IMG/VR virus record: IMGVR_UViG_3300017971_007886
Coordinates: 1-64,000 of that record
Source of the DNA: a virus
Length of the DNA stretch: 64,000 nt
Direction: 5' to 3' (one strand)
Shown: piece after piece, positions 2,302-47,061 of the stretch
Layout: each line of letters opens with the position of its first letter
Numbering within the stretch: position 1 is the stretch's first letter
Translations under genes and position numbers: made by a program
The notes under the pieces: model-generated
Seen by the model: only the letters and a program-made list of their open reading frames with translations
Database searches by the model: none
What the model was told of the DNA's origin: nothing

Positions 2302-3509
2302 ACTTTGAACTCGCACTCCTATCCAAGGTGATAGAGACGGGAGACATTCGGCCTCTGATACGTGCAGGTGTCACTGCCGACTACTTCTATGACCTGTCGT
2401 ATCGTGAGCTGTACCTCGCGTTGATCGAACACAACTCCAAGTACGGAGAGCTACCGTCAGAGGAGTACCTGACGGAGATGTTCCCAGACCTGGAGCTGGA
2501 AGAGGTTGGGGACTCTACCGAGTCCGTTATCGAGCGTGTGCAGGAGAAACGGATCTACAACGAGTTGGCCTACATCTTGGAGAAGGCCACCGAGGATGTG
2601 AGGATCGATCCCTTCGAGGCGCTTTCCACCATCCAGAAGAGAATCACCAGTGTCTCCTCTTTGATTGGCAAGGAGGAGGACTTCGACATCACCAAATGTT
2701 CGGAGGAGGTGAGGGCAGAGTACCTTCGGATGAAGAGGAAGCGAGGGCACGTTGGTATTCCTTGGCCTTGGCCGATACTGAACGACGCCACACAGGGGAT
2801 GCACCCAGGGAACTTGATCTTCATCTATGGCCGCCCGAAGTCGATGAAGACGTTCACGCTTCAGTACATCGCGAACCATGTTCACGCGAAGATGCAGAAG
2901 AAGATCGTGTTCTCGTCTCAGGAGATGGGCGTACCCGACATTCGACGACGTGGCGTGTGCTTCTTCTGTGAGTTGCCGTACAAGGACTACCGGGCAGGTA
3001 CCTTGACGACACGGGAGGAGCGAGAGTTCTTCGACAATCTGGCTGCGTGGGAGGAGAATCCTCCGTACATCGTCACCCGGTTGAAGGGTCGGGGCGAGGA
3101 TGCAGTCAATGAGTTCGAGGCCAAGTTGCGTGACCACGAAGCCGAGGTCGGCTTCTTCGACGGTGTGTACCTATCGGGTGAAGCAAAGTGGGAGTCGATG
3201 GTTGAGATCACTCGCGGTCTCAAGCGTGTAGCTCAGAACTTGAAGATCCCGATCCTGGGTACCGTACAAGAGAACCGTCAGGGGCAGACCGCCTACTCGG
3301 ATTCGTTTCTACAGGATTGTGATGTATTGCTGAGAACCGTAAGAGGGAAGGAGGAAGAAGAGAACGACGAGATCATTATCCAGACACCGGCATTGCGTGA
3401 AGCGAAGTTGAACGGGTTCGCCATCACGGCGTTGCCCTGCACATCATTCGTCCAGAAGTACAGTGTTGAGGACGAAGAAAAGCGAGCTGATGAACAGTTC
3501 GTTGACTGA
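2298..3509 (+). CDS. DnaB-like replicative DNA helicase (SF4)
   Basis: 403 residues, a little shorter than cellular DnaB. The N-terminal ~110 residues resemble a DnaB N-terminal helical domain, followed by a RecA-like motor. The P-loop is GRPKSMKT at 178-185; the glycine normally before the Lys is Met. A Walker B-like VGFFDG follows near residue 280. It would unwind the fork together with the primase at 6043 and the polymerase at 8173. The start is set by the ATGA overlap with the loader gene. Confidence 0.85.
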   Translation: MNFELALLSKVIETGDIRPLIRAGVTADYFYDLSYRELYLALIEHNSKYGELPSEEYLTEMFPDLELEEVGDSTESVIERVQEKRIYNELAYILEKATEDVRIDPFEALSTIQKRITSVSSLIGKEEDFDITKCSEEVRAEYLRMKRKRGHVGIPWPWPILNDATQGMHPGNLIFIYGRPKSMKTFTLQYIANHVHAKMQKKIVFSSQEMGVPDIRRRGVCFFCELPYKDYRAGTLTTREEREFFDNLAAWEENPPYIVTRLKGRGEDAVNEFEAKLRDHEAEVGFFDGVYLSGEAKWESMVEITRGLKRVAQNLKIPILGTVQENRQGQTAYSDSFLQDCDVLLRTVRGKEEEENDEIIIQTPALREAKLNGFAITALPCTSFVQKYSVEDEEKRADEQFVD

Positions 3510-3529
3510 CCTATTCAAAGGAGAGAGCA

Positions 3530-4651
3530 ATGGTTACTACCCAAGTCACAACGACGATGAACAAGACAATGGGGTCTCGTGCAATGGAGATCCTACAGGA
3601 CAAGATTCACAAGGGGAGGGAGACGGCTGCGGCCCTCATTGAGAAGATCGAGTACGAGTCCCCAGAGGACGCTTTGGTTCGCGGGGCGAAGTTGTCATTC
3701 GGTACCAAACAGCTTGACGATAGGTATGTCGTCGAGGCCCACTTCGGGAAGAAGAATGGGCATGGGAAGACCCTTCACAGGAACGCCATCGCACAGTTGG
3801 CCGAGCGGGGCGGTATCCATGCCGGGTACCTCCGTGGTCTCATCGAGGACAAGCTGTTGTGGAAACAACAACTCGCCGCCGAGATTCTGAACGAGCACTA
3901 CCACCACGACCTGGCCGCCGAGAAGCGGTACCTTGCCAGGTCGGTGCATGGTCAGTTGCGGGGGTGGTTGAGTGACAAGTACCGCCGCCTCGACAGCCGC
4001 CCGCTGGTGGACACGTTTGCCAGAGAGTGCCAGTCGGTTGGGGCAATCCCTTACGAGGGGTCATGGTCGGATACGCGAGTATCCCTCAAGGCTGTCCTCG
4101 ACCAAGTGTTCGAGCCCGTCCCTGGTGAGGCCATCGCACTCGGTATCGAGTGGTCCAACAGCGACTTTGGGCGGGGTATCCACGCCCTGCGGGCCTTCAT
4201 TCTCCGGGTGTGGTGCTTGAATGGTGCCACGATGGAGAACGCCCTCGGTCAGGTACACCTTGGCCGACAGCTCACCGATGACATCGAGTTGAGTCAGCGG
4301 ACGTATGAGCTGGACACCAAGGCGAGTATCAGTGCCTTGAGTGATGTGGTCCGAGGAGTCCTGGCCCCACCGAAGGTTGATCGCATCCTCGACAACATCC
4401 GTCGAGCCGAGGAACAGGAGATCAACTGGAAGCAGGCCAGTGCCGGGTGGTCAAAGAAACTCCTCAAGAGTGAGATGGAGCTGGCCAAGGAGAAGTGGGA
4501 GGACGATGGCGTGACGGACCTGCCTCCTCGCAAGACCAAGTGGAAGAAGTCCAATGTCCTCTCTTGGCTCGCCAATCGGGCCGATGACGAGGACCGGAAG
4601 ATGGAGCTTCAACGGATGGCCGGGGAGGCGTTGACCGGGGTGAGAGACTGA
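3530..4651 (+). CDS. DUF932-like phage protein
   Basis: 373 residues. The central segment (LARSVHGQLRGWLSDKYRRL followed by DSRPLVDTF) resembles the DUF932 phage/plasmid family, and the ~370 residue length fits. That family lies near replication and recombination genes, but its biochemical role is not established. The start has a good site (CAAAGGAGAGAG). The stop overlaps the next start by one base. Confidence 0.65.
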   Translation: MVTTQVTTTMNKTMGSRAMEILQDKIHKGRETAAALIEKIEYESPEDALVRGAKLSFGTKQLDDRYVVEAHFGKKNGHGKTLHRNAIAQLAERGGIHAGYLRGLIEDKLLWKQQLAAEILNEHYHHDLAAEKRYLARSVHGQLRGWLSDKYRRLDSRPLVDTFARECQSVGAIPYEGSWSDTRVSLKAVLDQVFEPVPGEAIALGIEWSNSDFGRGIHALRAFILRVWCLNGATMENALGQVHLGRQLTDDIELSQRTYELDTKASISALSDVVRGVLAPPKVDRILDNIRRAEEQEINWKQASAGWSKKLLKSEMELAKEKWEDDGVTDLPPRKTKWKKSNVLSWLANRADDEDRKMELQRMAGEALTGVRD

Positions 4652-21721: not shown

Positions 21722-22106
21722 ACGGTACCCACTGCGGAACAGCAGTTTCAGGGGGCGTCGTACCCCTCAACAGATTGCCGATGAGGCCGCCAGGAAGGCC
21801 GAAGCGAGGAAGATCGCGGAGGGCCAACGCATCACTGAGCGTGACGACCTGGCCATGACTCTTATCGCAATCGCGGAGTCCATGCGGAAGGACGAGAACA
21901 TTGACGCTCGCCGTGTCCACAGGGTCGAGATCGACCTGGATGATCAACTCGGGGCAGTAGTGGTCATCCACAGTAAGGTGTTCCCGACTCAGAAGCACAT
22001 GGTCTCCCCCTCCCGTTTGAGCGAGGTGTCGCAGGAAGTCTTTGGGGCTGACGAGCCCGAAGATCCTGATCCGCCACCACCGGAGGACACTGATGGGCAA
22101 TCGTAG
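21711..22106 (+). CDS. Hypothetical protein
   Basis: 131 residues, ATG behind GAAAGGAGTGAC. A basic N-terminus and helix, then a beta-like segment (LGAVVVIHSKVFPTQ), and an acidic Pro-rich tail. It overlaps queD by 14 bases. Confidence 0.65.
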   Translation: MPSKRYPLRNSSFRGRRTPQQIADEAARKAEARKIAEGQRITERDDLAMTLIAIAESMRKDENIDARRVHRVEIDLDDQLGAVVVIHSKVFPTQKHMVSPSRLSEVSQEVFGADEPEDPDPPPPEDTDGQS

Positions 22107-22497
22107 GTACATCATCACGAAGACGTTTCGGTTCGACTCTGCGCATCAGTTGTTCAAGATGCCAGCGGACCATCCGTGTCACCAGCTCCACGGTCACACG
22201 TACACGGTGGATGTCACGTTGTCCTCGTTGGGTTTGGACGACCGGGACATGGTGCTCGATCTCAACGTGTTCAGGGAACTCAAGAGCGTTCTCGACCACG
22301 CAAACCTGAATGATGTGATCCCGTCCGAGTATGGACAGCCTACCTCCGAGGTCTTGTGCAAGTACATCTGGGACTGGATCGACCGTCAGATTTGGGAACG
22401 GCTAGGCCCCGAGGGTCGGAAGGAGGTAGCCATTGGCAGAGTCGGAGTCCAAGAGACTCCCAACAACCGTACCGAGCTGGTACTGGAGGTAGAATGA
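22093..22497 (+). CDS. queD: QueD, 6-carboxy-5,6,7,8-tetrahydropterin synthase
   Basis: 134 residues. The PTPS/QueD fold is shown by zinc ligands His18, His33 and His35 (LHGH), catalytic Cys29, the LDHANLND segment and a VQETPNN motif near the end. It turns dihydroneopterin triphosphate into CPH4, the second step from GTP to preQ0. It lies upstream of queE and folE in the same run of genes. Confidence 0.9.
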   Translation: MGNRRYIITKTFRFDSAHQLFKMPADHPCHQLHGHTYTVDVTLSSLGLDDRDMVLDLNVFRELKSVLDHANLNDVIPSEYGQPTSEVLCKYIWDWIDRQIWERLGPEGRKEVAIGRVGVQETPNNRTELVLEVE

Positions 22498-22739
22498 TGC
22501 GGAAGCTAGAAAGACCTGAACTCGCCATCGGCCAGATTTGGCGTGACGAAGATCCTCGACGGCCTCCGAGGCATTTCGAGGTGATCGAAATCAACGATGG
22601 TGGGAGTAAGGTGAAGTGCAAAATCAGAGGACTGAACGGGTACACGCCCAAATCCGATGTCGCGATTCTCTCGGCAGAGCGTTTTGTGCGTAGGTTCCTG
22701 TTGGTCTCATCGGCCCAGAGTGGTAGTCTGGCCGGGTAA
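22494..22739 (+). CDS. Hypothetical small protein
   Basis: 81 residues. Starts at tandem ATGs overlapping the queD stop. It reads as a small beta domain (IGQIWRDEDPRRPPRHFEVI). Its place inside the preQ0 gene group may be incidental. Confidence 0.6.
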   Translation: MMRKLERPELAIGQIWRDEDPRRPPRHFEVIEINDGGSKVKCKIRGLNGYTPKSDVAILSAERFVRRFLLVSSAQSGSLAG

Positions 22740-22778
22740 CCCGCGCCCTATTGGACGCAAGAAAGAGAGAAAGCCCTA

Positions 22779-22976
22779 ATGAAGAAGTTGACCAAATCGC
22801 AGACCGGAATCCTACACCGTCTCAATTCAGACGGACGTACTCCAATCACAGAGATGCACACCGGTAGTGCCCGTGCCCTGGAAGGCCAGGGGTTTGTGAA
22901 GATTCGCGAAGGCAAGGCCGGTACCGGGGTTGTCATCACTGCTGCCGGGAAGCGGGCCTTGGAGGCGAGTGCGTGA
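22779..22976 (+). CDS. Winged-helix-like small protein
   Basis: 65 residues. LTKSQTGILHRLNSDGRTPI, then LEGQGFVKIREGKAGTG and ITAAGKRAL, resembles a minimal winged-helix DNA-binding domain (MarR-like wing). It might regulate the neighbouring queD-queE-folE genes, but that is conjecture. It overlaps queE by four bases. Confidence 0.6.
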   Translation: MKKLTKSQTGILHRLNSDGRTPITEMHTGSARALEGQGFVKIREGKAGTGVVITAAGKRALEASA

Positions 22977-23656
22977 CACTACGCCTTGCAGAGGTGTTTC
23001 CTACCGTACAGGGGGAGGGAGTGCTGATCGGTACCCCCTCCCTCTTTGTACGGACTCATGGGTGCAACCTGCGGTGTGAGTGGTGCGATACCCCGAACAC
23101 TAGCAGGTTGTCTCACCTACCTGAGAACAAGCCACAGAAGGTCGAAGTTGAAAAGCTCCTCAACTTCATAGTCAACGAGCAACCACTCGACCATATCGTG
23201 GTGACAGGCGGCGAGCCTATGTTACAGGCCGCCGATCTCTTTGAACTCGCACGAGCGTTGTACGAGGTGTACCACGTCACGCTCGAATCGAATGGGTCTC
23301 TGTACCCCAAGGTTCCGTTGCACACCTTGGTCCATCTGTTGAGCCTGAGTCCGAAGCTCTCGGAGGATGATTGGTCTGTTTCCAAACAGCTCATTGACGA
23401 GTGTGCCGAAACTCCGGGCACCTCCGTTCAGTTGAAGGTGGTCGTCACTGACCGTGCTGAATTGGAACTAGCCCTAGTTCGACTGGCCGCCCTGTGGAGG
23501 GCAACCAATGGCCGGTTCACTCCAATCATCCAACCCGAATCAAGCAGAGGGACAGAATGGGTACGAAGCGTGATGAACCATCTGGCATCAAAGTCAGACT
23601 GTCAGATACCCGTGAGGGTGATACCGCAGATACACGTCCTGGTTGGCGTCCGGTAG
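22973..23656 (+). CDS. queE: QueE, 7-carboxy-7-deazaguanine synthase (radical SAM)
   Basis: 227 residues from a GTG. The radical SAM cluster motif C31-x3-C35-x2-C38 (CNLRCEWC) follows the QueE-type start EVFPTVQGEG. It converts CPH4 to CDG, the third preQ0 step. Its last 100 bases overlap folE in another frame, so the two are translationally linked. Confidence 0.9.
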   Translation: MTLRLAEVFPTVQGEGVLIGTPSLFVRTHGCNLRCEWCDTPNTSRLSHLPENKPQKVEVEKLLNFIVNEQPLDHIVVTGGEPMLQAADLFELARALYEVYHVTLESNGSLYPKVPLHTLVHLLSLSPKLSEDDWSVSKQLIDECAETPGTSVQLKVVVTDRAELELALVRLAALWRATNGRFTPIIQPESSRGTEWVRSVMNHLASKSDCQIPVRVIPQIHVLVGVR

Positions 23657-24258
23657 CGGTACCGAAACAGATTCAGTCGGCAGTGAAGTCACTGTTGAAC
23701 TGGTGTGGCACCTACCAAGCAGAGGAGCAATACTTCCAAGACCTGGATCTGGAGGAAACTCCTGCGAGAATGGCCCGGATGTGGAAGCACGAATTGTTGT
23801 CGTCCTACAGGCCGGGAGCGTTTGAGGAGCTGGTAGATCGATTCACCACGTTCGAGTTGAAGGAGCTGGCCCCGAGGGAGATGATCGTTCAGGGTGACAT
23901 CCAGTTCTACTCGCAGTGTTGTCACCACATGGTCCCGTTCTTTGGGAGTGTCGCTGTTGGGTACATTCCAAAGGACAAGATCGTCGGTCTGTCGAAGATC
24001 GCACGAGTGGTTGACCACTTTGCGAAGCAACTACAACTCCAAGAGAGATTGACATCCCAGGTAGCGGACTTTCTCATGGAGCATCTGACACCAGCGGGGG
24101 TGATCGTGGTTGTGAAGGCCGAGCACCTTTGTATGACCATGCGTGGGGTACAGAAGCCCGGTACCATCACAGTTACTTCGGCATTGAGAGGGAACACCGT
24201 TGACAACCCCACCGTTCAACAGGAGTTCTACCGGCTCATTGGCATGGTACACTCCTAG
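23557..24258 (+). CDS. folE: FolE, GTP cyclohydrolase I
   Basis: 233 residues from the ATG at 23557. Zinc ligands C121 and H124 (QCCHHMVPF) and C192 (EHLCMTMRG) match GTP cyclohydrolase I. It makes dihydroneopterin triphosphate from GTP, the first step to preQ0. The first 30 residues are polar and not conserved-looking. It is the last gene before a new promoter. Confidence 0.9.
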   Translation: MGTKRDEPSGIKVRLSDTREGDTADTRPGWRPVAVPKQIQSAVKSLLNWCGTYQAEEQYFQDLDLEETPARMARMWKHELLSSYRPGAFEELVDRFTTFELKELAPREMIVQGDIQFYSQCCHHMVPFFGSVAVGYIPKDKIVGLSKIARVVDHFAKQLQLQERLTSQVADFLMEHLTPAGVIVVVKAEHLCMTMRGVQKPGTITVTSALRGNTVDNPTVQQEFYRLIGMVHS

Positions 24259-24410: not shown

Positions 24411-24776
24411 ATGCCACTGAGCGCCCAGTATGCGTGCTGTCCTCGTTATGGTCGAGGACGGGAGTTCACGATAAGCAGGATTGTGTGTTTCTGGAGTCAC
24501 TTCATCATGGATGATCCAGACGCACACCCAATGATGAAAGAGTTAGCCCTTAACTGTTGGAGGTGCCCGAATCGCAGGTACCTTCGTTTAACCGTACCGA
24601 AAGAGCGGTACAACAAGGAGAGAGTCAATGGCAGAAGTAGAGAAGACGGTCAAACGTCTGGAGAAGATGGCAGAAGCCCTGTTGGAGATCGCGGAGGCTC
24701 TACCCGGCTTGGTGGGCACCAAGTCTTCAAAGTCAAAGTCCAAGGCCAAGCCCGCCCCAGAGCCCGAGCCCGATGA
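24411..24776 (+). CDS. Cys-rich hypothetical protein
   Basis: 121 residues, ATG behind CGGAGGAAC. The first ~70 (CCPRYGRGREF, HFIMDDPDAH, CWRCPNRRYLRL) look coding, with Cys pairs. The last third is Gly/Arg low complexity and overlaps the next gene by 149 bases in another frame. First gene of its transcript. Confidence 0.5.
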   Translation: MPLSAQYACCPRYGRGREFTISRIVCFWSHFIMDDPDAHPMMKELALNCWRCPNRRYLRLTVPKERYNKERVNGRSREDGQTSGEDGRSPVGDRGGSTRLGGHQVFKVKVQGQARPRARAR

Positions 24777-25362
24777 GGACGAGGAGCTGGAAGAGGAAGA
24801 GGTCGAGGAGGAAGTCGAAGAGGAAGAGGAGGCAGAAGAGGAAGAAAGCCCTTCCGACGACGGCGACCTGGATTCGATGAACCGCATCCAGTTGTTGCCG
24901 CTCGCCAAGGAACTCGGAATCGACAGCCGTGGCAAGAAGGGGGACGAGCTGCGGGAACTCATCCGAGAAGCCCAGGGCGACGGGGGTACACGCAAGAAGA
25001 CTACCAAAAAGAAGGGTACCACCAAGAAGGCCGCCGCTTCCAAAGGCGCGTCCAAGAAGTCCCGGCCAGCCAAGTCCGGGCTCTCCTCGAAGAAGCCCGC
25101 AAAAGGTGGGCTAGGAGGCGCGAAGAAGAAAGGTACCGGGAAGCCGAAGCTCTCGGTGAGACTGGAGACATTCATCAGCAACAACTACGCCGACTTCGCT
25201 GAAATCCTCGATGGGGAGCGCGACGAGGAGACGGGCGTGTTGGGCTGCCAGGGTGTCTGCACCAAATGTCCGAACCCCGAAGAGTACGACACCGCCGCAG
25301 AGCAGGTCAAAGCCTGCTACGCCACGGTCAAGGACAGAATCGAGGCAGAGGAAGACGAGTAG
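24628..25362 (+). CDS. SAP-like protein with acidic and basic tracts
   Basis: 244 residues, site AAGGAGAGAG. An N-terminal helix is followed by a ~35-residue Glu tract, then a SAP/Rho-N-like helical motif (MNRIQLLPLAKELGIDSRG), a Lys/Ser/Thr/Ala histone-like stretch, and a C-terminal domain with CQGVCTKC. The layout suggests DNA binding and compaction or masking. Similar layouts occur at 34382 and 36137. Confidence 0.7.
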   Translation: MAEVEKTVKRLEKMAEALLEIAEALPGLVGTKSSKSKSKAKPAPEPEPDEDEELEEEEVEEEVEEEEEAEEEESPSDDGDLDSMNRIQLLPLAKELGIDSRGKKGDELRELIREAQGDGGTRKKTTKKKGTTKKAAASKGASKKSRPAKSGLSSKKPAKGGLGGAKKKGTGKPKLSVRLETFISNNYADFAEILDGERDEETGVLGCQGVCTKCPNPEEYDTAAEQVKACYATVKDRIEAEEDE

Positions 25363-25398
25363 CGCACCTTCCCGCAAGCGACATCTTCAGAACGCGAG

Positions 25399-25431
25399 GG
25401 CACTCCGGGCGGCTGGCCTGGGGTGCCTTTT
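25399..25431 (+). terminator. Intrinsic terminator
   Basis: GGCACTCC (25399-25406) pairs with GGGGTGCC (25420-25427, one G-U), followed by TTTT. It lies 37 bases after the stop of the SAP-like gene. Confidence 0.75.
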
Positions 25432-25435
25432 CGCG

Positions 25436-25930
25436 TCTCAGGGAGGCTGCGCCGATCCTACCGGCCCCCGATTCTACCGGCCCCCAAGGGTACCCCGGCC
25501 CCCGGTCCTACCCCGGCCCCCGGCCCCCGGCCCGGTACCTTGCCAGGGGTACCCCTGGCCCCCTTGCCATACGTTGCCCTACAATCGGTTGCCCTAGGTA
25601 CCCTTGCCACCGATTGCCATACGTTGCCAGGGGTACCCTTGCCCTACATTGCCCTAGGTACCCTTGCCACCGATTGCCATACGTTGCCCTAGGTGTATTG
25701 TACCCCGGCCCGGTACCCCGGCCCGGTACCCTTACAATACGTTGCCATACATTGCCACCGATTGCCCTAGGTACCCCGGCCCGGTAGGGTACCGGTACCC
25801 TACCCTAGGTTGCCATACGTTGCCCTAGGTGTATGGTGAAAAGAAAAGTAACCAAGGGGCCGGGGTACTGTGTAGGTACCTCAGAGGTACCCAAAACGAT
25901 CGTTAGGGGTACCGATTGATCCGATTAGGG
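25436..25930 (+). repeat. GC-rich repeat block A (non-coding)
   Basis: About 500 bases without a credible gene, made of the words TTGCCATACGTTGCC, CACCGATTGCC, CCCTAGGTACCC and CCCCGGCCCGGTACC. A 40-base unit is repeated exactly at 25589-25628 and 25649-25688 (period 60). A 25-base unit recurs at 25674-25698 and 25810-25834. GGTACC and CCTAGG palindromes are everywhere. It could be an origin, a recombination site or a packaging site. Confidence 0.85.
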
Positions 25931-25931
25931 A

Positions 25932-25960
25932 TTGACAATCGAAGATCGTTGATCTCACAA
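25932..25960 (+). promoter_or_regulatory. Promoter-like site before the histone-like gene
   Basis: A perfect TTGACA (25932-25937), 17 bases, then TCACAA (25955-25960), a weak -10. It sits among repeated GATTG and GATC words. Downstream are a 14-base perfect palindrome GGCCCCTAGGGGCC (25980-25993) and the hairpin GGGGCCAAGCCCC (26002-26014), just before the start codon. Confidence 0.45.
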
Positions 25961-26030
25961 TGGGATTGAACCATTAACAGGCCCCTAGGGGCCAAAGAAC
26001 AGGGGCCAAGCCCCGAGGAGAACTAGAACC

Positions 26031-26585
26031 ATGGCGAGACAAGCGAAAACCACAACCAAGGCCACAACCAAGAAAGCCCCCAAGGCCCCCAAGGGTACCC
26101 CGAAAAAACCGGCCCCCAAGGCCCCCAAGGGTACCGCCAAGGCCAAGAAAGCCCCCAAGGGTACCGCCAAGGCCAAGAAAGCCCCCAAGGGTACCGCCAA
26201 GGCCAAGGCCAGCGACAAGGCCAGCGACAAGGCCCCCAAGGCGGTATCTACCCCGCGATTGAATCAAACCGCGATCAAAATGGGGGGCCGGTATCACATG
26301 ACGCGATCCTACCATTTTGAAGATCCCAAGGCCCGATCCGAGTTTATCGCGAGACTCGAAGCGGGAGACTTTGATCTCGCGATCCAGTATCTTGAGGTAG
26401 GCCCCTTTGTGGTCCTAGTCAACGTGGAAGCCGAGCCCTTGCCGATCAACGTGTCCGACGATCCCAAGGTGAAGGAAGCGCGGGAAGCGTATAAGGCGGA
26501 AATGGCCAAGGCCAGGGAAGCCCTGAAGGCCAAGGTTGCCGAAATCAAGGCCACCTATCGCGCCAAGGCCAAGGCCAGCGAATAG
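26031..26585 (+). CDS. Histone H1-like DNA-binding protein
   Basis: 184 residues, site GAGGAG. Residues 1-80 are Lys/Ala/Pro rich with a repeated KAPKGT unit (APKGTAKAKKAPKGTAKAK), like eukaryotic H1 tails and bacterial histone-like proteins. Residues ~85-135 form a compact domain (YHFEDPKARSEFIARLEAG, LEVGPFVVLVNVEAE), and the end is a long Lys/Ala helix. The DNA coding APKGT (GCCCCCAAGGGTACC) is the same word as in the flanking non-coding repeats. Likely a DNA-condensing protein. Confidence 0.75.
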   Translation: MARQAKTTTKATTKKAPKAPKGTPKKPAPKAPKGTAKAKKAPKGTAKAKKAPKGTAKAKASDKASDKAPKAVSTPRLNQTAIKMGGRYHMTRSYHFEDPKARSEFIARLEAGDFDLAIQYLEVGPFVVLVNVEAEPLPINVSDDPKVKEAREAYKAEMAKAREALKAKVAEIKATYRAKAKASE

Positions 26586-26975
26586 CCAAGGCCCCCCGGC
26601 CCCCAAGGGTACCCCGGCCCGGTCCTACCCCGGCCCGAGGTACCCCGGCCCGGTCCTACCATGCCCGATCAACGTCCTACCCCTTATCCCTACCGGCCCG
26701 AGGTACCCCGGCCCCCCAAGGGTACCCCGGCCCCCGGTAGGGGTATCCCTACCCCGGCCCGGTACCTTGGCCCCTTGGCCTTGTGTCTGGCCTTGGTAGG
26801 GATACCCCTACCCCTACCGGCCCCCGGCCCGGTCCTACCCCGGCCCGAGGTACCCCGGCCCGGTCCTACCTTGGCCCCTTGCCAAGGGTACCCCGGCCCC
26901 CGGCCCGGTCCTAGTCTACTGGCCCCCGGCCCCCGGCCCGGTACCCCGGCCCGAGGTACAAGGCCCCCGGCCCGA
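26586..26975 (+). repeat. GC-rich repeat block B (non-coding)
   Basis: About 390 bases of CCCCGGCCC, GGTCCTACC, GAGGTACC and CCAAGGGTACC words, with a strong C bias on this strand. A 49-base unit is exact at 26612-26660 and 26822-26870. No credible gene: the open frame across it encodes only Pro/Gly/Arg repeats. It mirrors block A on the other side of the histone-like gene. Confidence 0.85.
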
Positions 26976-26976
26976 T

Positions 26977-27005
26977 TTGTTGATCGTGCCGATCTATTAT
27001 ATAGG
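26977..27005 (+). promoter_or_regulatory. Promoter-like site after repeat block B
   Basis: TTGTTG (26977-26982), 17 bases, then TATAGG (27000-27005), inside the AT-rich stretch TATTATATAGG. It follows the GC-rich block directly and would serve the small zinc-protein genes that begin at 27081. Confidence 0.45.
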
Positions 27006-27030
27006 TGTGATCCCTACTTTTGCCCACATT

Positions 27031-27056
27031 GCCAGGGTACCGGGCCGGTACCTGGC
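27031..27056 (+). promoter_or_regulatory. Leader hairpin with GGTACC arms
   Basis: GCCAGGGTACC (27031-27041) faces GGTACCTGGC (27047-27056), paired except for one bulged G. It lies between the promoter-like site and the site AAAAAGGAGAG of the next gene. Could be an operator or RNA control element. Confidence 0.45.
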
Positions 27057-27080
27057 ACTAACCAAAAAGGAGAGCTGGAA

Positions 27081-34217: not shown

Positions 34218-34280
34218 GGGGTACTGACGGGGTACTTTTCTATTGACTGCCCCTAGGTGGTTTGATAGGTGTACCCCGTC
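34218..34280 (+). promoter_or_regulatory. Promoter flanked by GGGGTAC repeats
   Basis: TTGACT (34243-34248), 14 bases, then TGATAG (34263-34268). Two direct GGGGTACT copies (34218-34225, 34229-34236) are 11 bases apart. The inverted repeat GACGGGGTAC (34226-34235) and GTACCCCGTC (34271-34280) brackets the promoter. This is the arrangement of an operator with two or three sites. Confidence 0.55.
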
Positions 34281-34381
34281 AATCCCGAATCAAGATCGTA
34301 AACCAAATGGACATGCCAGCACTTGTAATGGTACTCGTGTTGGCAGACCGAACCAAGGCCCAAGTGGTCAAGGAGAGAGCA

Positions 34382-35206
34382 ATGAACAAGAAGGACATCG
34401 AAGAAGCTGTTGCGAACGGTATCTCGGAAGGAATGGCCGAGGTCGTCTCTACGCTGGTAGAGATTCGTGACGCCATTGGTACAGCGGGGTGGGGCGGAGA
34501 CAAACCTGCCGCGCCCGCTGACGAAGAGGAGCCCGAGGAACCGGAAGAGGTCGAAGAGGAGGCAGAGGAGCCCGAAGAGGAAGAGGCGGCAAGCGGGGAG
34601 TTCAACCTCGGTGACGAGGTGGTCGCGTACTTGGCTGACGAAGAGGGGAACGCTGACTGGTACGAGTCCGAGATTGTCGCTATGAACAGCGAAGGCGAGT
34701 TCACCATCAAGACGCAGGATGGTGACGAGATTCCTGGCGTGGGGCCAGGGTACTTGGCTGCCCCCGAGGATGAGGATCGTATCCTCGCAATCGAGGGCGG
34801 TGAGTTGGATGAGGAAGAGGCTCCAGAGGAGGAGCCCGAAGAAGAGGAACCCGAAGAAGAGGAACCCGAAGAGGAGGAAGAGGAAGTGGCTACCAAGAAG
34901 ACCAAGAAGAAGACCTCGAAGAAGGCCACCAGCAAGAAGGAGACCGCCTCCAAGAAGGACAAGGCCGCCGAGGAGGCCGCAAAGGAGAAAGCGCGGAAGG
35001 CCAAGCGAACTCGGCTCGCGAAGGGTGTTCCCTACACCAAGGAACAGTTGCAGAGCGACAAGTTCAAGCGACAAGACCTGGTGATGTTGGCCTCGTACAT
35101 CAACGAGGTCGCAGGGAAGAAGGTCATCAAGAACCCACTGGCGAAACAGGCGTTGCTGATCAACTCGATCATCAAGTACCAGAAGGTACTGAAGAAGGGC
35201 AAGTAG
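34382..35206 (+). CDS. Acidic/basic protein with Tudor/SH3-like domain
   Basis: 274 residues from the ATG at 34382 (AAGGAGAGAG). Order: short helix, Glu/Pro tract, an SH3/Tudor-like domain around residues 78-140 (FNLGDEVVAYLADEEGNADW), a second long Glu/Pro tract, a Lys/Thr/Ser histone-like stretch, and a C-terminal helical part. Probably binds DNA or masks it. Related in design to 24628 and 36137. Confidence 0.7.
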   Translation: MNKKDIEEAVANGISEGMAEVVSTLVEIRDAIGTAGWGGDKPAAPADEEEPEEPEEVEEEAEEPEEEEAASGEFNLGDEVVAYLADEEGNADWYESEIVAMNSEGEFTIKTQDGDEIPGVGPGYLAAPEDEDRILAIEGGELDEEEAPEEEPEEEEPEEEEPEEEEEEVATKKTKKKTSKKATSKKETASKKDKAAEEAAKEKARKAKRTRLAKGVPYTKEQLQSDKFKRQDLVMLASYINEVAGKKVIKNPLAKQALLINSIIKYQKVLKKGK

Positions 35207-36136: not shown

Positions 36137-37111
36137 ATGAAGACATTCACGCAACAAGAACTTGAGAAGATGAGCCTTTTGGAGATCCGAAAGGTTGCCC
36201 GCAAATTGGGAATCACTGACATCGCTGGTAAGCGACAGAACGAAATCGTCAGGAAGATTCTAACCAAGCAAAAGCCCGGTGGCGTGGACCCACGGGTGAA
36301 GCCGAAGGAGGCTGCGGCGGCCAAGAAGAAGACCAAGGCCGAGCCCAAGCCCAAGGCTGCGAAGAAGACCAAGGCCAAGACCAAGGCTGCTCCAAAAGAG
36401 GACATCGAAGAGCCAACGTTCTCTGGTACACTGGAGCAGAGGGTGGCGCGAATCGAGATGGCCTTGGTGGGGGCAGGGATCATGGATGCGAAGATGGACA
36501 AGAAGAAGCCAGCAACGAAGACGCCGCCCAGCGTGGAGCAAGCGGTATTGCCGAGTGAGTGGTTCGACGAGGATGGGAATCTCTCGCTCACGCCAGAGGA
36601 CATCGAGTCGATGAACTTCGATTCCATCCTGGCAGTCAACAACCTCTTGGGTGACTACGCCGCCGACATCCCTGAGTCGCAAAGGAAGACGCCACGACTC
36701 GCGAGGATGCGGTTGGTTCAGGCACTCAGGAAGATCGGTGATGTCGAACAAGGGGAGGGTGACGACGAGCCAGAAGAGGAAGGTGAGCTGGTGGAAATCG
36801 AGCCCAACGAAGAAAGCCCGTTCCCGCCCGAGGAGGTCGGAGACCAGTGCTACATCAAGGACGAGAAAGGCCGGTGGTTTGCGGGGCTCGTCGTTGACAT
36901 CTCCGAGAAGGATGGAGAGCCCTGGTACCTCATTCGCTACACCGTTGGCGATGCGGTGATCGAGGAAGAGGTCGATGTCGAGGAGCTGAAGCCTTGGGAG
37001 CCCGACGAGGAGGAAGAGGCAGAGGACGAGGAAGGCGAAGAGGAAGAGTACGAAGAAGAGGACGAGGCTGAAGAGGAAGAAGAAGAGTACGAAGAAGACG
37101 AAGACGAGTAG
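36137..37111 (+). CDS. SAP + basic + Tudor-like + acidic protein
   Basis: 324 residues. Order: N-terminal SAP/Rho-N-like helices (LEKMSLLEIRKVARKLGITD), a Lys/Ala/Pro histone-like tract, a helical middle, a Tudor/SH3-like domain (VGDQCYIKDEKGRWFAGLVV), and a 40-residue almost pure Glu/Asp/Tyr tail. It combines the modules of the proteins at 24628 and 34382. Likely a phage nucleoid or chromatin-like factor; role inferred. Confidence 0.7.
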   Translation: MKTFTQQELEKMSLLEIRKVARKLGITDIAGKRQNEIVRKILTKQKPGGVDPRVKPKEAAAAKKKTKAEPKPKAAKKTKAKTKAAPKEDIEEPTFSGTLEQRVARIEMALVGAGIMDAKMDKKKPATKTPPSVEQAVLPSEWFDEDGNLSLTPEDIESMNFDSILAVNNLLGDYAADIPESQRKTPRLARMRLVQALRKIGDVEQGEGDDEPEEEGELVEIEPNEESPFPPEEVGDQCYIKDEKGRWFAGLVVDISEKDGEPWYLIRYTVGDAVIEEEVDVEELKPWEPDEEEEAEDEEGEEEEYEEEDEAEEEEEEYEEDEDE

Positions 37112-37421: not shown

Positions 37422-39497
37422 ATGACGCGAATCTACCTTGCCGGTGCGGAGAGTGGTCCGCTCTCAGATGAGCTAGAAGAGAACAACGTCAAGCACATCC
37501 TCTACTCCTATTTCTGGTTGTCGAAGAAGGATCGGGAGAGGGTGATGGTCGAACGCATAAAACGAGGTCGGGAGAATGGTATCAAATACCTGCTCGACTC
37601 GGGTGCGTTCACCTACCTCGATGCCCAACAGGCGGGCTCGCGACTCCCCTTCAACGTCTACAAGAAGAGGTACTTTGACTTCATTGCCAAGCACGGTGAG
37701 TTGTTCGAGGCGTGCGCGGAACTCGATGTCGAAGGTGCTGAGATAGACGGGATGGGTACAATCTCCCTCGACCAGGTGTGGCACTGGCGACAACAGATGT
37801 TCGAGGCTAACCCGAAAGCCACCATCATGCCCGTCTGGCACTTCGGTACTCGTACCCAAGAAGAGTGGAACACGCTTTGTGAAGATCCTCTCGTCACCTA
37901 CCTTGGAATCGGAAGTACCCACAGCGGCGCAGTCTTCAATCAAGAAGGAGTATTCCACAGGCTCATTGCGAAGGCCCATGCCCACGGCAAGCGGGTACAC
38001 GGAATGGCCGCGACCAAGGTGAAGACGCAGTTGAAGAAACTCAAGTTCGACAGCGTAGACAGCGCCTCCTGGCTATCTGCCCAGAAGTTCGGTACGACGT
38101 TCATCTTCAAAAACGGGCAATGGATAGTTCTGGACAAGTACAAGAAGAACCAACGCAGAATCCATCGACGCCACTTCACCAAGATCGGCGTGGACTACCA
38201 AAAACTCGAAGCAGACAAGAGTAGCGAATTACGCCATGCAGCGATATTGGCGTGGAGAGACCTGGGAGAGTGGCTGATGAAGAAACGGGCCAAGATGCAC
38301 CAAGACCTGGAAGACCAAATTGCGGCTACACCTCAAGTAGACCCAGAAGTGCCACAGGAGAAGAAAGTGCCAGCTACGAAGAAGGCCAAGAAGTCCAAAA
38401 ACAAGGTACCAATCAAGGTACCCGCAAAGGTACTTTCAGGGGTACCGGCACCCCAAAAACCACCTCGCGGGAAGGCAAAATCGAGTGGTGAAGTCTTCAA
38501 AATACCGTGTCCCAGTTTTGGACAAAAAGCAGACGACGGTGCGGTAAAAAGGGGCCGAAGGGGTCGAAAACGCACATTTGCGCGGACCCCAATTACGACC
38601 AGCTCGCGGGATGGAAAACAGACTCCCAAGGTCAACGATAAAGCCACTTCTATGGATAAGGGAGACCCTACAGAAAAGGCCCCTGATAAAGGTACCCCGT
38701 ATCTCGAAGAGGTACCCCAACCTACGCTACCCCAGGAGCCAGTGTCTCAGGACGCACTTGCTACGGTAGAGCAGCCAGATAGCACACTTCCTACCTGGAA
38801 ACGCCCTGATTATCTACACAAGACCGAGAAGCAGAGGTCGCTACTCCATGATCTACCACAACTGAAGTGTGGGCTGTGCTCCATAGGTACTGATTGCCCG
38901 TCCTATGATGAGTCACTACAACAGTGTGCCTTTGCTGAAAGGCTCAATGCGTTTCCAGTACGTGATGCGGACAATCTACTGGGTGCTATGGAGTACATTG
39001 TAGATGTCAACAAGTCGCGGCTATGGAAACTACTTCTCATGGAGAACATGATCGAAGGCGGTATGCCAAGCGAACGTGCTACGCAACTTTCTGAGATTGT
39101 ACTGAACCAGCTCGAACGGCTCAGAGAACAAAGAACCATGATGGAAGGCGCTGCTGTGAAAGTCAATTCTGGACCCGGTATTCTAAGCTCCATATTTGGG
39201 GTCTCTGGAAGGGGGTCTGTGGGGGGTACGGCAGTACAGGTAAATATACAGAACGCCCCAGCTCGCGGCGCAGATGTACGTGATGATAATCCTGCCAATA
39301 GTGGGATTGTAGTGGAAGCACAGACAGTACCCCATAATGTACCTACAGAAGAGGGTACCCCTACTGCGGCTACTGATGCGCAAGTAGTAGAAGCTGAAAC
39401 AGAGAATGAAGTACCTAGTTCTGGCGAATCAGGTAGCAAAGCTGACACAGGTACCACAGGAGAGGACGCCCCCTCGGGCAAGGGGGTGGGGGGTTAA
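37422..39497 (+). CDS. dpdA: DpdA-like DNA guanine transglycosylase with long C-terminal extension
   Basis: 691 residues from the ATG at 37422. Residues 1-250 resemble DpdA, the tRNA-guanine-transglycosylase relative that inserts preQ0 into DNA: LLDSGAF (D59) matches the TGT DSGGF motif, and HGMAATK then FDSVDSASW (D210, D213) matches the nucleophile region. Residues ~300-480 are a basic Pro/Lys/Thr linker. Residues 483-575 hold a four-Cys motif (C483, C486, C492, C502) and helices. The rest is disordered. The 3' half is clearly more AT-rich than its surroundings, hinting at a separate origin. It may be a fusion. Confidence 0.8.
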   Translation: MTRIYLAGAESGPLSDELEENNVKHILYSYFWLSKKDRERVMVERIKRGRENGIKYLLDSGAFTYLDAQQAGSRLPFNVYKKRYFDFIAKHGELFEACAELDVEGAEIDGMGTISLDQVWHWRQQMFEANPKATIMPVWHFGTRTQEEWNTLCEDPLVTYLGIGSTHSGAVFNQEGVFHRLIAKAHAHGKRVHGMAATKVKTQLKKLKFDSVDSASWLSAQKFGTTFIFKNGQWIVLDKYKKNQRRIHRRHFTKIGVDYQKLEADKSSELRHAAILAWRDLGEWLMKKRAKMHQDLEDQIAATPQVDPEVPQEKKVPATKKAKKSKNKVPIKVPAKVLSGVPAPQKPPRGKAKSSGEVFKIPCPSFGQKADDGAVKRGRRGRKRTFARTPITTSSRDGKQTPKVNDKATSMDKGDPTEKAPDKGTPYLEEVPQPTLPQEPVSQDALATVEQPDSTLPTWKRPDYLHKTEKQRSLLHDLPQLKCGLCSIGTDCPSYDESLQQCAFAERLNAFPVRDADNLLGAMEYIVDVNKSRLWKLLLMENMIEGGMPSERATQLSEIVLNQLERLREQRTMMEGAAVKVNSGPGILSSIFGVSGRGSVGGTAVQVNIQNAPARGADVRDDNPANSGIVVEAQTVPHNVPTEEGTPTAATDAQVVEAETENEVPSSGESGSKADTGTTGEDAPSGKGVGG

Positions 39498-43100: not shown

Positions 43101-43799
43101 ATGGCAACAGTCGCGTACAGCGGTGGGATCGACAGCACCGTCCTCATGTACGAGTTGGCCTCTCAAGGCCGCCTCAACCTGGCGGTACTCTGCAACTTCG
43201 GACAGCCATCGTTTGATCGACAGCTTCGTTGTGCGGAGTATCAGATCGCCAAACTCGAAGAGCATGGCGTGGATGTCCACTTCCGGGTGGTGGAGTTCAA
43301 GACGCCCGAGGAGTTCCAGGTCAAGGAGGCTTCTCCGTTCTTCTCGATGCGGCCTCTGAACCCACTGGCCAAGGCACCAAAGAAAATGAAGGACGCCATC
43401 GCGTATCGACTCGATAACTTCGCCATCACCCCAGGACGGAACGCTTTCATGGTCTTGATGGTTGGGATGGTCGCGGCGGCCTTGGAGACGAACCCGGCAG
43501 TGGTCACGGCGTACCAGTACGAACAGGACATCTGGGATACGCAGGACACCATCTCAGGGGACGAGTCGCCCTCGTTCTGGTTGAAGATGGGCATGGTTTT
43601 GGAGACGGCCTTCGAGGTACCTGTGGCGCTTGAGAACCCGTTCTTGGATCGTCATTGGGACAAGGAGCGCATCATCCGTGAGGGTATCGAGTACGGAATC
43701 GACTTCGCACACACGATGTCCTGCGAATTTGAGGAGCCCTGCGGCGAGTGCGCCCAGTGCCAACTGGTCAAGAAGACGGTTGCCAAAACCAGGGGCTAG
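43101..43799 (+). CDS. Divergent QueC-like ATP-PPi enzyme
   Basis: 232 residues. The PP-loop SGGIDS (7-12), PGRN near residue 113 and a C-terminal zinc site (C...CGECAQC) place it in the QueC family. It lacks the GDC-x-PPF segment found in the QueC at 46393. A changed substrate is therefore likely: perhaps it modifies preQ0 or the DNA base rather than making preQ0. The YkgJ-like gene lies two bases upstream; a promoter sits inside its 3' end. Confidence 0.75.
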   Translation: MATVAYSGGIDSTVLMYELASQGRLNLAVLCNFGQPSFDRQLRCAEYQIAKLEEHGVDVHFRVVEFKTPEEFQVKEASPFFSMRPLNPLAKAPKKMKDAIAYRLDNFAITPGRNAFMVLMVGMVAAALETNPAVVTAYQYEQDIWDTQDTISGDESPSFWLKMGMVLETAFEVPVALENPFLDRHWDKERIIREGIEYGIDFAHTMSCEFEEPCGECAQCQLVKKTVAKTRG

Positions 43800-43924: not shown

Positions 43925-44038
43925 ATGGCACGAGGAAAGAAGAGAGCCTACAAAATGACCACCAAGGGCAAGCGAACCAAGGCGTTCAAGCCCCTCTTCG
44001 GAAAGAAGAAGGTCAAGGGCGGCAAGGGCGGCAAGTAG
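43925..44038 (+). CDS. Tiny basic protein, copy 1
   Basis: 37 residues, about half Lys, Arg or Gly (starts MARGKKRAYK, ends LFGKKKVKGGKGGK). Site GAAGGAG, although the spacing is short. Near-paralogue of the next gene, so a tandem duplication. It resembles a protamine-like DNA-binding peptide. Its place just before the terminase suggests a packaging or DNA-condensing role. Confidence 0.7.
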   Translation: MARGKKRAYKMTTKGKRTKAFKPLFGKKKVKGGKGGK

Positions 44039-44041
44039 GTC

Positions 44042-44152
44042 ATGGCCCGTGGGAAGAAGACGCTGGTGAAGCGTCTCAAGACCAAGGCCGGGGCCGTACT
44101 GCGCCGACTCTTCGGCAAGAAGAAGGTCACGGGAGGTAAAGGCGGCAAGTAG
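44042..44152 (+). CDS. Tiny basic protein, copy 2
   Basis: 36 residues (starts MARGKKTLVK, ends LFGKKKVTGGKGGK), sharing both ends with copy 1 and differing in the middle. It begins three bases after the copy 1 stop. Same proposed role; the two may bind DNA or the capsid interior. Confidence 0.7.
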   Translation: MARGKKTLVKRLKTKAGAVLRRLFGKKKVTGGKGGK

Positions 44153-45971: not shown

Positions 45972-46396
45972 AGCCAGCAGACGTATTGAACCTACTCCCC
46001 AGGTACCTGGTTCGAGCGGCCCGCATCAACAACATCATCCCGTCTGATCGCCCCAAGCAGTACAACGAGACAGCCCAATACGAGCACATCACTCGGAACA
46101 TTTACGTTGTACCCAACCTTCCGGCAGAGGTCATGCGCCGGTCGATGATTCACGAGATCGCCCACGCCCTTGACGACAACTTCGGTGTCGGGCACTACTT
46201 TGGAGAATCACCAGCCTGGGCAGAGTTGTCGAGGCGAATGTATGGCGACGTGTCTGTGGTCGAAACCTTCGCTGAGAACATGGCGACCCACTTGTTGGAC
46301 CCCACGTTCTCTCGCATGGTGAATCCATCCGTTGCCAAGTTCATGGATGAAGCGTTGACCTATTTGCAGATCATGTTCAAAGGAAAGACCCAATGA
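45968..46396 (+). CDS. Zinc metallopeptidase-like protein
   Basis: 142 residues with HEIAH (62-66), the HExxH zinc motif, in a helix followed by ALDDNFG. The fold may be minigluzincin/SprT-like. It could be a virion or maturation protease, but no substrate is evident. It overlaps both terL and queC by four bases. Confidence 0.65.
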   Translation: MKPADVLNLLPRYLVRAARINNIIPSDRPKQYNETAQYEHITRNIYVVPNLPAEVMRRSMIHEIAHALDDNFGVGHYFGESPAWAELSRRMYGDVSVVETFAENMATHLLDPTFSRMVNPSVAKFMDEALTYLQIMFKGKTQ

Positions 46397-47061
46397 CCAA
46401 AGAAGAGAGCAAGTTGGTATTCTGTTCGTGTAGTGGTGGCCTCGATTCGAGCGTGATGGTCCAAAAGCTCGAAAATGAAGGGTACTACCCGATCCCCATC
46501 TTCATCGACTACGGCCAGAAGACGGCAATCGTCGAGTTCGACCGCCTTCGCCAGGTGTGGCCGAAGTGCAAACTCATTCGATTCGACCTCATGGGTGGCA
46601 TCCGGTGTTGGGCCACCAATCCGGGGGACCAGTTCATCCCCACCCCGAAGCGTGAACGCGATTTGATGTTCATCCCTGGCAGGAACATCTTCTTCCTGAC
46701 GAGGCTGGCCGTCGAGGCGTACTACTTCCACGCCCATTACCTCGCACTCGGGAACAACACCGATGACCTCACATGCGGAGACTGCAAGCCTCCGTTCTTG
46801 GAGTCGATGGCCAAGTCCCTCACTCTCGGCATGTCCACCCGTGATGCGGGCGAGTACGAGTACGAGATCCTTCAACCCTTTGGTGACATGAGCAAAGCCG
46901 ACATCGTTCGGTACGGCCATGACCACGGGGTAGCCATCGAGAAAACATGGAGTTGTTACGATTTCCAAGAGAAGCATTGTGGGGTATGCTGGAACTGTGT
47001 GGAAAGGAAGCACGCCTTTGAGAAGGCGGGCGTTGAAGACAAGACAGGCTACATAGAGTAG
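46393..47061 (+). CDS. queC: QueC, preQ0 synthase
   Basis: 222 residues. The PP-loop is SGGLDSS (14-20), with FIPGRNIFFL, ALGNNTDD and CGDCKPPFLESM in the QueC order, and a C-terminal zinc site (SC...CGVCWNC). It converts CDG to preQ0, completing the pathway begun by folE, queD and queE 22 kb upstream. It is the more typical of the two QueC paralogues. Confidence 0.85.
   Translation: MTKEESKLVFCSCSGGLDSSVMVQKLENEGYYPIPIFIDYGQKTAIVEFDRLRQVWPKCKLIRFDLMGGIRCWATNPGDQFIPTPKRERDLMFIPGRNIFFLTRLAVEAYYFHAHYLALGNNTDDLTCGDCKPPFLESMAKSLTLGMSTRDAGEYEYEILQPFGDMSKADIVRYGHDHGVAIEKTWSCYDFQEKHCGVCWNCVERKHAFEKAGVEDKTGYIE

Follow-up and report, generated by a model that had tools for sequence, protein, structure and literature searches.

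How does one short DNA word come both to encode the repeats of a protein and to fill the non-coding DNA on either side of its gene? The question is raised by one locus of an uncultured phage, whose record of 92,966 bases encodes a terminase, a tail sheath and a DNA polymerase according to profile matches; the window referred to below is the stretch of its first 64,000 nucleotides. A 9-mer scan places the highest repeat content of the genome in an island of 1.6 kb (approximately 25440-27060), where repeated 9-mers make up 20-53% per 500 nt, compared with a genome median of 0.4%. The GC content of the island reaches 72% and its GC skew is locally reversed. It is neighboured by FolE, a 244-residue protein with acidic and basic character, a zinc-ribbon ORF and RadC. 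An Rfam search gave no match above threshold and a tRNA scan found none. The features of the locus are as follows.

25392-25436, plus strand: terminator-like hairpin with a 4-T tail, ending the upstream unit and bordering the island on its left
25440-25560, plus strand: GC-rich block of the left array with CCGGCCCCC, AAGGGTACC and CCCCGGCCCGGTACC words, 25-26-nt exact matches to the right array and a copy of GCCCCCAAGGGTACC at 25480
25481-26952, minus strand: seven G-quadruplex-type clusters, from a pattern scan
25564-25840, plus strand: TTGCC lattice of the left array with GGTACC and CCTAGG words, from TTGCC counts and autocorrelation
25932-25961, plus strand: candidate sigma-70-like promoter, TTGACA-18-CACAAT, 10/12 in a consensus scan and a consensus match only
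26015-26020, plus strand: ribosome-binding site GAGGAG, read in the sequence 10 nt 5' of the ATG at 26031
26031-26585, plus strand: gene for a 184-residue basic orphan protein
26121-26207, plus strand: 30-nt coding tandem repeat, 2.9 copies, 100% identical DNA
26586-26975, plus strand: right array of CCCCGGCCC, GGTACC and GGTCCTACC words, beginning at the stop codon
26736-26812, plus strand: near-perfect 77-nt hairpin within the right array, -55.7 kcal/mol, z -8.1

The region 25380-25440 folds at -36.9 kcal/mol (z -5.4). The hairpin at 25392-25436 was not picked by a simple terminator scanner, which needs five T in eight, and the hairpin of the right array is without a T tail.

The gene between the arrays looks real, judging from its codon score (0.252 per codon, where phage genes have a median of 0.193), its ribosome-binding site and its promoter-like site. 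Residues 1 to about 72 of the product are basic Lys/Ala/Pro repeats, including four of the form KAPKGT; they are without predicted secondary structure and mostly have a pLDDT of about 50 or lower. Residues 76-130 were modelled as beta-beta-alpha-beta-beta and residues 145-182 as a long basic helix, both at low confidence (mean pLDDT 61-64, modelled with no alignment), and a fold search with this model returned no match at E<=0.001. The full protein matched nothing in Pfam (E<=1) or NCBIfam, including no histone H1, HU or H-NS profile, and its PHROG matches were weak, of unknown function and not credible. Relatives were likewise absent from viral contigs, genome contigs, phages, plasmids and solved structures, in a search that needs exact 8-residue words and that distant kin may therefore escape. 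A match to Klebsiella phage RCIP0023 (41% over 47 residues, E 0.3) was discarded as not credible. The earlier note had called the gene histone-like; the Lys-rich composition agrees with that description, but it draws no support from Pfam, NCBIfam or any credible PHROG match. Judged from its charge, the protein is likely to bind DNA; the earlier note suggests that it may even bind its own locus.

The C-terminal part of the gene uses codons within the range of the phage, with 10 of 120 segments scoring equal or lower. Within 26241-26585, GAA encodes nine of the 12 Glu residues, compared with 24% in the phage (P 0.0003, uncorrected across amino acids), and this bias is a hint of foreign origin.

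To see how far gene and flanks are made of the same DNA, we located the word that encodes the protein repeat. GCCCCCAAGGGTACC has six exact copies in the 92,966-base record and all lie within the island: one in the left array (25480), four in the gene (26085, 26121, 26151 and 26181) and one in the right array (26599). The four coding copies are all in frame and read GCC CCC AAG GGT ACC, for Ala-Pro-Lys-Gly-Thr; the same word written backwards, as a control, does not occur in the record. Near 26720 lies a 14/15 copy, CCCCCAAGGGTACC, in a context that from 26713 has 17 nt in common with the gene, and the copy at 26882, CCAAGGGTACCCCG, has 14 nt in common with it. The statement of the earlier note that the gene word recurs in the non-coding blocks on both sides is thus borne out, exactly at 25480 and 26599 and at 14 of 15 positions near 26720. 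The 11-mer CCAAGGGTACC occurs once in the left array, four times in the gene and three times in the right array, with no copy in the remaining 61.5 kb of the window. The longest word found in the gene and in both flanks is GGCCCCCAAGGGTACCCCG, of 19 nt.

Codon bias does not suffice to explain this sharing. The gene has 24 12-mers that are present in the flanks, whereas permuting its synonymous codons, which keeps both the protein and the codon counts of the gene, gave 5.9 +/- 3.9 and failed to reach 24 in all 500 trials. With codons redrawn from phage usage the value fell to 1.2 +/- 1.9. Since both codon-aware nulls fall short of the observed count, the sharing is real at the DNA level. Codon bias accounts for about one quarter of it and not for the remainder, and coincidence of codon usage was rejected as the whole explanation. 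The sharing between gene and flanks exceeds codon bias, and the array is limited to one locus.

These words are not spread evenly along the gene. All gene words of at least 12 nt that recur in the flanks lie at 26084-26196, and the 115-codon C-terminal part has none. Coding copies 1 and 2 have array context on both sides (GGCCCCCAAGGGTACCCCG and ACCGGCCCCCAAGG), and the later coding copies form the identical 30-nt tandem. A common origin of the coding and non-coding repeats is well supported. The earlier note had offered two readings, that the repeats spread through the gene or that the gene arose from the array; they hold as far as common origin goes, but the array is unlikely to have given rise to the gene in its entirety, as long words in common with the flanks are confined to the N-terminal repeat part.

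Within the arrays the repeats are strongly directional. The left array contains an exact 40-nt duplication (25589/25649) and the right array an exact 49-nt duplication (26612/26822). In the left block TTGCC occurs 17 times forward and never in reverse; every step between TTGCC words within 25564-25684 is 10 or 15 bases, and the autocorrelation of the left array peaks at 10, 15 and 25. Direct matches between the left and right arrays extend up to 26 nt, compared with a single inverted match of at least 15 nt, itself 15 nt long. The forward and reverse counts are 27:2 for CCGGCC, 12:0 for TTGCCA and 15:0 for GCCCCC. This near-single orientation points to direct duplication or slippage rather than to palindromic elements landing either way round, and the multiplication of strand-oriented words by that route is well supported. 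Repeat spacings are divisible by three in 110 of 110 cases in the gene, compared with 51 of 144 and 56 of 163 in the two flanks. In-frame spacing in the gene fits selection for frame; repeated codons alone also yield such spacing, so that the figure is no independent proof of duplication at the DNA level.

These data led us to favour, with about even confidence, a self-contained 1.6-kb gene cassette set between two operons of the phage. Within it, a single strand-oriented family of short words would have been multiplied by direct duplication through coding and non-coding DNA alike.

The direction in which the words travelled can be read in two ways. It is possible, at somewhat less than even probability, that a non-coding array entered or lengthened the 5' portion of a gene for a basic protein that was already present, and was retained where it fell in frame. 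Array sequence surrounds coding copies 1 and 2, which differ from the copies in the flanks by an inserted 9 nt, AAAAAACCG (Lys-Lys-Pro), and array words continue past the stop codon; the word is, however, near-optimal in phage codons, a match that an array would achieve only by luck. The reverse course, in which a Lys/Ala/Pro coding repeat written in favoured phage codons leaked outward and seeded the words of the array, we regard as rather unlikely. Four of the five codons in GCC CCC AAG GGT ACC are the top choice of the phage, and the fifth, CCC, ties with CCG (127 vs 128). AAGGGTACC also encodes Lys-Gly-Thr once in the upstream gene at 24628-25362, which is without an array, and three unrelated viral contigs (L230, L237 and L274) have CCAAGGGTACCCCG in apparent Lys-Gly-Thr-Pro coding DNA, again with no array. 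Yet the gene has few or no copies of most array words (CCCCGG, the TTGCC arrays and CCTAGG), and it is the first coding copies that bear the array context.

Other accounts concern the island as a whole. A moron is an extra phage gene with its own promoter, set between phage operons, and a host-derived cassette of this type could have arrived with its own repeats. The word vocabulary is foreign to the remainder of the phage, the promoter-like site lies between two units, the local GC skew is reversed, and the Glu codons are GAA-rich; against this, Lys, Ala, Thr and Gly codons are as in the phage, and a 20-mer of the array is missing from a genome collection of 84,980 species. In our estimation a host source is doubtful. 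With a promoter-like site (a consensus match only), a place between operons and a terminator-like hairpin upstream, the locus may resemble a moron; it differs from one in that no clean terminator follows the gene and no island-free relative was found. Island DNA had no match in a phage collection, and searches for phage relatives through RadC, sheath and terminase gave no close one and only L007, with a distant sheath. It appears improbable that the island is a replication origin or a packaging site bound by the basic protein. Direct repeats are present, the island contains seven of the genome's nine G-quadruplex-type clusters on the minus strand (and none on the plus strand), GC at about 25600-26199 is below that of the arrays, and comparable lattices precede terminase operons in other viruses. 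An iteron-type origin, however, places direct repeats beside an initiator gene, and family and profile searches recognised no initiator among the flanking genes. The phage's own terminase is 17 kb from the island, so that the lattice is not adjacent to it, and the sign of the GC skew is the same to the left and right of the island.

Least probable of all, and very improbable by our estimate, is the insertion of a mobile palindromic element, akin to Rickettsia palindromic elements, REPs or MITEs, into the gene and its surroundings. GGTACC and CCTAGG are palindromic hexamers and the hairpin is strong. Rickettsia palindromic elements, of 100-150 bp, are found genome-wide, also within protein-coding genes (PMC3767692); as with these elements, members of a single repeat family lie both outside and inside an ORF of the phage, where the frame is kept. 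Unlike them, the phage words are units of 15-30 nt at a single locus in a single orientation and are not dispersed, and no target-site duplication of at least 9 nt was found at the island edges. Palindrome transposition as the main route was rejected on word orientation.

The cassette with words multiplied by direct duplication allows us to propose how the locus might work. The promoter-like site at 25932 would drive the gene, whose basic, H1-like product would coat or condense DNA. The KAPKGT stretch may have lengthened by slippage of the GC-rich word that was also expanded in the flanks, and in-frame gains would have been retained because additional Lys, Ala and Pro were tolerated or useful. 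By analogy with other viruses, the TTGCC lattice, stepped by one helical turn, could present phased sites at which a regulator, encoded by phage or host, binds to control the downstream transcript, and the GC-rich right array could serve as a structured 3' end.

We looked for that lattice in other viruses. We found the 15-mer lattice word TTGCCATACGTTGCC in 97 viral stretches, many of which are probably chance occurrences. A lag-10 lattice signal (z>3) was found in 12 of these 97 stretches and in none of 167 stretches with two control words, an imperfect control in that both words are richer in GC than the lattice word. The 18-mer TTGCCATACGTTGCCCTA occurs three times in the window and also in 11 other viral contigs, several of which have a similar non-coding lattice upstream of a terminase operon. 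In two contig groups (L124, L140, L167, L149, L129, L202 and L121; L150, L178, L174 and L148) the lattice word lies a few hundred nt 5' of the first gene of a large-terminase operon, on the same strand, the terminase being identified by profile in L124 and by look-alike sequence in the other contigs. More broadly, uncultured viral contigs of several groups have TTGCC/ATACG lattices in non-coding DNA, with a periodicity of 5/10 bases and accompanied by palindromic words and C-runs; in many cases these precede the large-terminase operon (L124 at 3420-3600; L140, L167, L149, L129, L202, L121 and L193; L150, L171, L174, L178 and L148; L117; L151). The lattice word was not found in cultured phages or plasmids. 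CCCCGGCCCGGTACC, present in 104 viral contigs, and CCAAGGGTACCCCG, present in 63, are not part of comparable arrays there. A separate intergenic word array (CCTTGGC, GCCGCTAGGC) was observed at 13790-14100 of L024, an unrelated viral contig.

These lattices hint at a cis-acting element common to the viruses concerned. For this phage a shared regulatory role would be an argument by analogy, as its lattice lies away from the terminase. More tentatively, the TTGCCATACG/TTGCCCTA lattices with their 5/10-base steps might constitute, in several lineages of uncultured viruses, a cis-acting element that has so far gone undescribed. A shared protein, probably from the host, would read it before key operons, and here it would also have become joined to a gene whose coding repeats were drawn from the adjoining array. 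A literature search on TTGCCATACG and on phage repeats common to genes and spacers found nothing relevant. The TTGCC lattice in other uncultured viruses nevertheless provides a concrete DNA element to seek in hosts and to assay for protein binding.

Several further features of the phage genome were noted. Genes at 22042-24258, 37425-39497, 43101-43799 and 46393-47061 encode QueD, a QueE-like protein, FolE, two QueC paralogues and a queuine tRNA-ribosyltransferase-like protein (phrog_887, E 1.1e-40), a set that is likely to constitute a 7-deazaguanine DNA modification pathway. Directly before the large terminase gene, at 43925-44152, are two tandem, tiny and highly basic ORFs, each with a GGKGGK end. 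Proteins combining Glu-rich acidic runs with Lys-rich runs are encoded at 24628-25362, 34262-35206 and 36137-37111, the first also containing the AAGGGTACC that encodes Lys-Gly-Thr.

The protein itself may be compared with AlgP (AlgR3), a histone H1-like protein of Pseudomonas with disordered KPAA repeats whose coding repeats are prone to rearrangement (PMC9239181). The phage protein shares a predicted disordered Lys/Ala/Pro repeat domain with such H1-like tail proteins of the AlgP and PhaF type. These have an N-terminal helical domain followed by C-terminal repeats, whereas the order is reversed in the phage protein, where N-terminal repeats precede the beta-rich domain and helix. No homology was detected between AlgP and the phage protein. 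The passages of PMC9239181 used here mention no flanking non-coding array for algP, such as the phage gene has. Palindrome-rich short repeats also fill non-coding DNA in the organelles of Volvox, where they are intergenic and intronic and occur genome-wide (PMC2670323); in the phage the words are in addition found inside a coding gene.

Repeats that occupy both spacers and ORFs, as Rickettsia palindromic elements do (PMC3767692), are of a kind already known, and what is new to us is the form, with local, oriented, short words around and inside one phage gene. The locus offers a compact viral example of repeat words that cross the border between coding and non-coding DNA, in which one could test directly whether repeat DNA gave rise to, or lengthened, a low-complexity protein.
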